From assembly GCA_001931875.2 (NCBI GenBank), contig MSJH02000840.1, positions 124,001 to 188,000 of the forward strand: 64,000 bases of DNA, in the 5' to 3' direction. The notes under the pieces were generated by a model that was not told the origin of the DNA, did no database searches, and was given only the letters and a program-made list of their open reading frames with translations. The position numbers and the translations under genes were made by a program. This stretch comes from Byssochlamys sp. IMV 00236 (Eukaryota; Ascomycota; Eurotiomycetes; Eurotiales; Thermoascaceae). Positions 12,001-13,098 of this stretch are shown here, piece after piece (the stretch's first letter is position 1; each line of letters begins with the position of its first letter).

Positions 12001-13098
12001 TCAGACGTCATCCATCTCACCAGCAGGCTCTTCGCCGCCAGACTCATAGCTGCCAACTGAACTCATCTCGTCTTCCGACTCGGTGTCCTCCCCAGCCTCG
12101 TCCGCAGCTTCTTTGCTGGCATACTTCGCCACATATTCTGAGAGCATCCTGGTTAGATAGCATTCCGAGCGAAGCGTCAACAACCACCTACCTCGGACTT
12201 TAGCGTCATAACTCTTGGGTTCTCTCATGAGCATGGCCGCTGCCTCGCCGTTCAGGGGATCGGAAGGGTTGGGGTAACGCAAAAGCTGCGGAAGAAAGAC
12301 TTCGAAGATGTTGATCATATCATACATAGGAGACCAAGTTTGGTTGATAACATCGAGGCAGACGGAGCCGGAACTAATGGAGTCAAGTTAATCCTGTTTC
12401 GCATACAAAGCCACTCCACGGAATCTCACAGTTCGTCAATGTTCGGGTGGAATATACGGTTGACGAATCCAATGCTTGGACTCTTGTATGGGTATTGATC
12501 GGGCAGCTCTACATGGATCTTCCAGAGACCACCAGCGAATGGCGCTACAGCATGGTCAGTAATGCGGACTATTGGATCACAAGGCTTGGCACCTACTTTC
12601 TTCAGGTCCCTTGAAACGAACGTAGAATTCTTGCCTGTGGAGAGGCTGTATGAACATCAAATACAGAAGTAATCCCTGGAAAATCAATTTTGACGTACAC
12701 TGGGAGCGTAGTCAGCGACAGAGAATACCAGCCATAGGGAAATCACAAGTACTGACTGTTATCATTCACTAGAGTAACCTCGTAGTCACTCATCAACCTG
12801 AGAATTTATATCGTCAATATCCCTTCATTTCCCAAAATAATGTGGATTGAGCCGTCGGACGAGGCAGACGGAGGGAAAGGCGGTGGCAAAGGATTAACGT
12901 ACATCCTAAGTTCCATGTTAGCTAAACCACAGAGCACATTTGTATAGATCAGGTTAAAGACTTACTTCATGACCTAAATGAATGCGAAAAAGAACCCCAG
13001 GTCAGCTTTCAACTCCATAGAAATGCCATAGATCTGTTGCGCCCTAAAGTGTCACAGCCACTTACATCGGTCTCGATTCTGCGCTTGGGGCTGCTCAT
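12001..13098 (-). CDS. ubc8: Ubiquitin-conjugating enzyme E2, Ubc8/UBE2H type, nine exons with microexons
   Basis: E2 enzyme that receives ubiquitin from E1 on a catalytic cysteine; in yeast Ubc8 acts with the GID ligase in degrading gluconeogenic enzymes. Exons on the minus strand are 13066-13098, 12966-12973 (8 nt), 12903-12905 (3 nt), 12757-12797, 12699 (1 nt), 12597-12634, 12430-12544, 12192-12373 and 12001-12137. They sum to 558 nt and 185 residues. The product starts [19 protein letters not shown], continues [13 protein letters not shown], and has FHPNID and the catalytic cysteine in [11 protein letters not shown], then the acidic C-terminal tail typical of the family. The 3-nt and 1-nt exons are needed to obtain the family peptides DVMK-M-LMSD and NDN-M-QEF, which match the spacing I recall for yeast Ubc8 (DVMKLLMSD, NDSMQEF). 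Both are flanked by strong acceptors and GTACGT donors. The enzyme identity is near certain; the microexons are inference from sequence. Confidence 0.93.

Follow-up and report, generated by a model that had tools for sequence, protein, structure and literature searches.

One-nucleotide exons are already known. The available excerpt of one report describes a single-nucleotide exon in Arabidopsis APC11, for which sequential splicing by intron definition was proposed (PMC4674806), and the excerpt of another describes micro-exons of 1 nt in APC11 and VPS55 that are conserved across land plants (PMC8831610). A fungal example is found in the Fusarium CYP621A P450 genes, whose one-nucleotide exon was confirmed by SRA reads in two species and termed the first for a fungal gene by its authors; the available text reports the exon in 20 Fusarium orthologues and also mentions 24 sequences (PMC12940212). 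Among the matches listed from open-access titles and abstract openings, none described an exon of this size in the gene for a fungal ubiquitin-conjugating enzyme, and the UBC8 case presented here is new as far as the literature searched goes.

The candidate UBC8 exon resembles those of APC11 and VPS55, as these are described in the excerpts, in that one coding base lies between two introns, is missed by annotation and appears to be conserved over long times, and APC11, like UBC8, is a gene of the ubiquitin system (PMC4674806, PMC8831610). The plant genes encode a ubiquitin-ligase subunit and a sorting protein, whereas UBC8 encodes a fungal E2 enzyme, and the plant exons are backed by cDNA, RT-PCR or reporters, whereas the UBC8 exon is a candidate read from sequence (PMC4674806, PMC8831610). 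With CYP621A, going by the available text, it shares the fungal host, a base located inside a conserved motif and essential for the frame, and gene models that are mostly wrong, but the CYP621A base is a G in AG/G/GT in Fusarium, while the UBC8 base is a T with signs in six classes (PMC12940212). As in the stwintrons of Aspergillus and other fungi, two intron units would be removed consecutively; in a stwintron, as outlined in the excerpt, one intron interrupts the signal of the other with nothing exonic between them, whereas the UBC8 introns both look complete and the coding base would stay (PMC5639578).

The gene is encoded on the minus strand of positions 12001-13098 of the window (hereafter, the whole 64-kb stretch of DNA that was analysed) and is a complete UBC8 gene for an E2 ubiquitin-conjugating enzyme. 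Its coding sequence comprises nine exons of 33, 8, 3, 41, 1, 38, 115, 182 and 137 nt, which sum to 558 nt and encode 185 residues and a stop (Table 1). The identity of the gene and its exon coordinates had been proposed in the initial annotation and were confirmed by our reading of frame and splice sites; the 186 codons given there hold if the stop is counted, the protein itself having 185 residues. Using phmmer, the protein matched yeast Ubc8 (PDB 8PMQ chain E) over residues 1-173 with an E value of 3.4e-70. It has the E2 domain, including the HPN and catalytic Cys region, and by sequence belongs to the family of yeast Ubc8 and human UBE2H E2 enzymes (PDB 8PMQ, 8PJN, 2Z5D). The yeast structure also contains the Met that the initial annotation had given for yeast Ubc8, as NDSMQEF, with spacing equal to NDNMQEF of the window. 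Human UBE2H, unlike the window protein, has one residue fewer at the junction loop in the alignment.

Table 1 Exons, introns and branch-site-like motifs of the UBC8 gene, in positions of the window.
Feature	Position	Strand	Description
Exon 1	13066..13098	-	33 nt, start ATG
Exon 2	12966..12973	-	micro-exon of 8 nt, GTCATGAA
Exon 3	12903..12905	-	micro-exon of 3 nt, GAT
Exon 4	12757..12797	-	41 nt, 3' end AACA
Intron 4	12700..12756	-	57 nt, GTCAGT...CCCAG
Intron 4 branch-site-like motif	12711..12715	-	CTGAC, A at 12712
Exon 5 (candidate)	12699	-	single T, middle base of ATG codon (Met29)
Intron 5	12635..12698	-	64 nt, GTACGT...CCACAG
Intron 5 branch-like motif	12656-12660	-	TTGAT, weaker than intron 4 motif
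Exon 6	12597..12634	-	38 nt, 5' start GCAAGAATTC
Exon 7	12430..12544	-	115 nt
Exon 8	12192..12373	-	182 nt
Exon 9	12001..12137	-	137 nt, stop TGA

T12699 is flanked by the acceptor CCCAG and the donor GTACGT, with exactly one base between AG and GT. When it is included between exon 4 (12797-12757, minus strand, last letters AATGATAACA) and exon 6, the codons AAC-ATG-CAA give NDN-M-QEF. Joining AACA of exon 4 directly to GCAAG of exon 6 breaks the frame, with a stop after 52 residues, and translation reaches a stop after 32 residues if intron 4 is kept and after 60 if intron 5 is kept. T12699 is thus required for the frame and the conserved Met, and an in-frame alternative without it exists (NDNSQQEF, see below). 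Introns 4 and 5 each look complete, with GT, a branch motif, AG and a normal length, the other introns of the gene spanning 52-105 nt. The branch A of intron 4 sits 12 nt before the final base of the intron; the GCTGAC site that the initial annotation had placed here is present, but its distance of "about 10 nt" from the acceptor is corrected to 12 nt. An earlier AG (ATACAG, at 12646) is found in intron 5 between TTGAT and the modelled acceptor. The 3-nt exon GAT is required for K-M-LMSD, and skipping it keeps the frame at the cost of one residue. The full 185-residue protein with the conserved NDN-M-QEF is obtained only when T12699 is read as an exon. We are highly confident that T12699 is a one-nucleotide coding exon of the UBC8 gene of a Paecilomyces, probably constitutive, between two separately complete introns, and it is predicted to be part of the mature mRNA of this species.

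The two introns would enter a single ATG codon, intron 4 after A (phase 1) and intron 5 after AT (phase 2). Two sets of splicing factors could hardly occupy one base simultaneously, and introns 4 and 5 would therefore probably be removed one after the other, as has been argued for APC11 (PMC4674806). If intron 4 left first, the product would be AACA/TGTACGT, in which the T is the last base of an ordinary exon and is followed by a good donor; if intron 5 left first, it would be CCCAG/TGCAAG, and either order is workable on paper. As these short introns (57 and 64 nt) fall within the size range of the gene and are complete in themselves, intron definition could suffice for their sequential removal.

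To evaluate chance occurrence, we considered the motif YAG/T/GTRNGT, which occurs once over both strands of the 64-kb window. The 122-nt stretch was then shuffled 20,000 times, with the six end bases fixed and the inside dinucleotide-shuffled, and a match required this motif, a branch motif and a length of at least 45 nt for each of the two introns. A legal match was obtained in 2 of the 20,000 shuffles, rising to 7 when any base was accepted as the exon under otherwise the same criteria; a bare AG/T/GT was in a legal position in 610.

We also enumerated the in-frame GT-AG paths that lead from exon 4 into exon 6 through at most one internal exon, each intron being 40 nt or longer. There were 13, only one of which gives NDNMQEF. 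This path ranked second by splice score (14.62), and the top-scoring one (14.70, 12769/12676) truncates exon 4 at 12769, with loss of the conserved VNDN. The scores are rough, as the splice matrix was built on a strict set of just 14 introns; a hand-set branch term was added to them, and a two-intron path was scored as the mean of both introns. Branch positions followed a hand-set rule independent of the matrix. Two other intron sets were left unused for the scores: the first ab initio set was noise, and a looser set drifted to an implausible acceptor and scored most UBC8 acceptors badly. Paths using the acceptor inside GCAAG (NDNKF, score 9.06) or the AG at 12646, which inserts extra residues or loses VNDN, were rejected.

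To reveal how relatives read this junction, we performed three protein searches and kept the best 120 of 5621, 5349 and 5813 matches, the second and third queries being models in which the junction takes a rival form (SK and SE). The resulting 225 distinct homologues comprised 59 transcript-like sequences on short contigs (jgi, lgn, ena, merc) and 166 named sequences. The 59 were taken as probable transcript assemblies because their frames run without interruption over all or nearly all of the protein, on contigs of ~0.9-7 kb, some with in-frame 5' extensions; for P0148, which is one of them, the contig size is not given. M was found at the one-base junction in 59/59 of the transcript-like sequences among the matches listed (56 by a narrower pattern and 3 by eye; a wider pattern alone scored 59/59). 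Because truncated mis-spliced forms would largely escape a length-limited protein search, this count speaks against in-frame rivals and not against minor mis-spliced forms. The residue of the 3-nt exon was retained in 56 of the 59, and the remaining 3 start at MSD. Patterns for the other junctions matched in 51/59 (3-nt exon), 49/59 (exon 1/2), 57/59 (exon 6/7), 55/59 (exon 7/8) and 59/59 (exon 8/9).

The named sequences are mostly genome-based, and 158 of them were assigned to Pezizomycotina by name. Just 15 of the 158 listed Pezizomycotina models have M at the one-base junction and 143 fail there, while the same models matched downstream at 144 (exon 6/7), 156 (exon 7/8) and 155 (exon 8/9). 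At the 5' junctions, 44/158 matched at the 3-nt exon and 116/158 at exon 1/2, and the 5' half of UBC8 is generally hard for named models. The match counts are lowest at the micro-exons, so the trouble of the gene models peaks there, and most at the single base. Models misread at the one-base junction were found in six classes of Pezizomycotina (taxonomy was checked for one species in each), and all eight named sequences outside Pezizomycotina among those listed have M or L at the junction. Over the C-terminal part that was compared, six transcript-like sequences showed no difference from five of the named models, those of Aspergillus carbonarius, Penicillium chrysogenum, Ilyonectria destructans, Lepidopterella palustris and Morchella importuna (matched twice). 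All six have M, and the paired models have MYVQK, K, TPFLP..., SMRSPQM or SKLPTT... instead. In the best 22 of the 59 pairs of transcript-like sequence and model, the model agreed on M in two, both involving P0157.

The errors of the named models were decoded by the residues that they carry at the junction. The 166 sequences included 27 with Sx before QEF, 39 with longer S-insertions, 16 with K-FYVRF, 19 with M and an insertion, 21 with M directly before QEF (by the narrower pattern), 7 with R and 25 others; 12 were unparsed, among them P0006 and P0104 (M and an insertion) and P0157 (M). The Sx class is the expected result of moving the donor A/GTNN^GT by 4, and the K-FYVRF class that of using the AG inside GCAAG. 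Adding P0006 and P0104 to the 19 gives 21 NDNM read-ins, in which M is followed by Y (16 models), F (2) or, in a single model each, S, P or H, and then by V (14), A (2), M (2) or, again in a single model each, G, N or P; a residue with a TNN codon (Y, F or S) thus follows the M in 19 of 21. Read-through of T/GTAYGT predicts Y and then V, in agreement with these read-ins.

Nine models have S...R insertions of at least 26 residues, and six of them permit exactly one YAG/T/GTNNG split when both introns are required to have at least 40 nt, a criterion that 1.5-9.6% of shuffles also fit. The six are from Aspergillus niger (P0049) and Fusarium (P0126, P0132, P0133), together with P0137 and P0152, whose insertions are identical; they represent about three independent lineages, with intron lengths of 56/67, 47/52 and 49/56. 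The models of A. niger and two Fusarium groups thus appear to retain both introns with YAG/T/GTNNG between them. The insertions of P0074, P0146 and P0150 do not fit the donor pattern, and two such introns would not have room in two of them. Closer to the window, the Paecilomyces model P0032 contains exact translations of window introns, and P0006, also from Paecilomyces, contains such translations with one residue different, its M being joined to the read-through of intron 5. In a separate group (P0037, P0055, P0073, P0080, P0131, P0211 and P0217) the junction reads NDN-R-QEF, which fits none of the decoding schemes; perhaps these models predicted a one-base exon G (AG/G/GT). Upstream, 14 named models read VMKMY..., as if entering a GTAY donor after the 3-nt exon.

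Three other readings of the junction were weighed against the one-nucleotide exon. The donor may instead lie four bases downstream, with exon 4 extending to AACAGTCA and a single 118-nt intron running from GTACTT (12752) to 12635. This path is in frame and without a stop, and the same kind of junction, Sx before QEF, is seen in the 27 named models mentioned above. The initial annotation had listed it as a weaker rival, and we obtained the same result: its product, NDNSQQEF in a protein of 186 residues, adds one residue relative to yeast, and GTACTT has no G at +5 and scored 1.81 compared with 4.53 for GTCAGT in the 14-intron matrix, giving path scores of 10.39 for the shifted donor and 14.62 for the one-base exon. 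The form was detected in 0/59 of the transcript-like sequences among the matches listed, and the second residue inserted in the 27 models (K, E, M, T, R, G or Q) can in every case be encoded by donor positions 3-4 plus G, as read-through of a donor predicts. We thus consider the shifted donor very unlikely.

A stwintron, in which an internal intron interrupts the splice signal of an external one and no exonic T is retained, has still less probability, close to none. Such introns do occur in Aspergillus, where their removal takes consecutive splicing reactions, as described in the available excerpts (PMC5639578, PMC6616335), but removal of the T from UBC8 breaks the frame and leaves a 52-residue product, and the listed transcript-like relatives have M in 59/59. 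Introns 4 and 5 are moreover each equipped with a GT, a branch-like motif and an AG, which leaves no need for a split signal, and the arrangement around T12699 does not fit a stwintron. It is equally improbable that one exon base was lost beside a single 122-nt intron, through a sequencing or assembly error or decay of the gene. A one-base frame problem is the typical product of an indel, but the remainder of the gene reads through, the 143 of 158 named Pezizomycotina models that fail at this same junction come from many separate genomes, and other Paecilomyces records carry the same intron text.

The decoded model errors and the M in 59/59 listed transcript-like sequences suggest that the same one-base exon is present in many other Pezizomycotina, its conservation in other ascomycetes being read from their protein sequences. 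The expectation of the initial annotation that relatives keep the arrangement is therefore supported, indirectly, but its scope of Eurotiales was too narrow, given misread junctions in six classes. Within the assembly of the window (47.4 Mb, 840 contigs), a second UBC8 was detected on C47, C303 and C304, at the same coordinates on the latter two, with NDNMQEF in one unbroken exon and 35% GC at the locus compared with 48% in the window. This copy is apparently from another organism, and the assembly may be a mixture. Scanning for related DNA gave no match in the viral contigs, and in the genome contigs three prokaryotic loci with E2-like matches, uninformative for UBC8.

The one-base exon looks old and is perhaps ancestral in Pezizomycotina. 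A more specific and rather doubtful proposal is that it predates the radiation of the group and was retained with the 3-nt exon, the 8-3-1 cluster serving as a splicing-fidelity gate for Ubc8, as failure at the single base would yield a truncation of 32, 52 or 60 residues and not an active enzyme. In yeast, Ubc8 is the E2 of the GID ligase.

The apparent breadth over six classes of Pezizomycotina makes this case unusual among fungi, and the misannotation is notable as well. If the reading is correct, a large fungal group would have preserved exons of the smallest possible size in a conserved gene, and such wide retention would mean that the spliceosome must handle one-base exons routinely there. 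It would also supply numerous natural variants, some of them in fungi that are easily handled in the laboratory, with which the order of splicing and its limits could be tested. At the same time, 143 of the 158 listed Pezizomycotina Ubc8 models would be wrong at the junction, and wrong models of Ubc8 affect alignments, structure predictions and pipelines with a minimum exon length.
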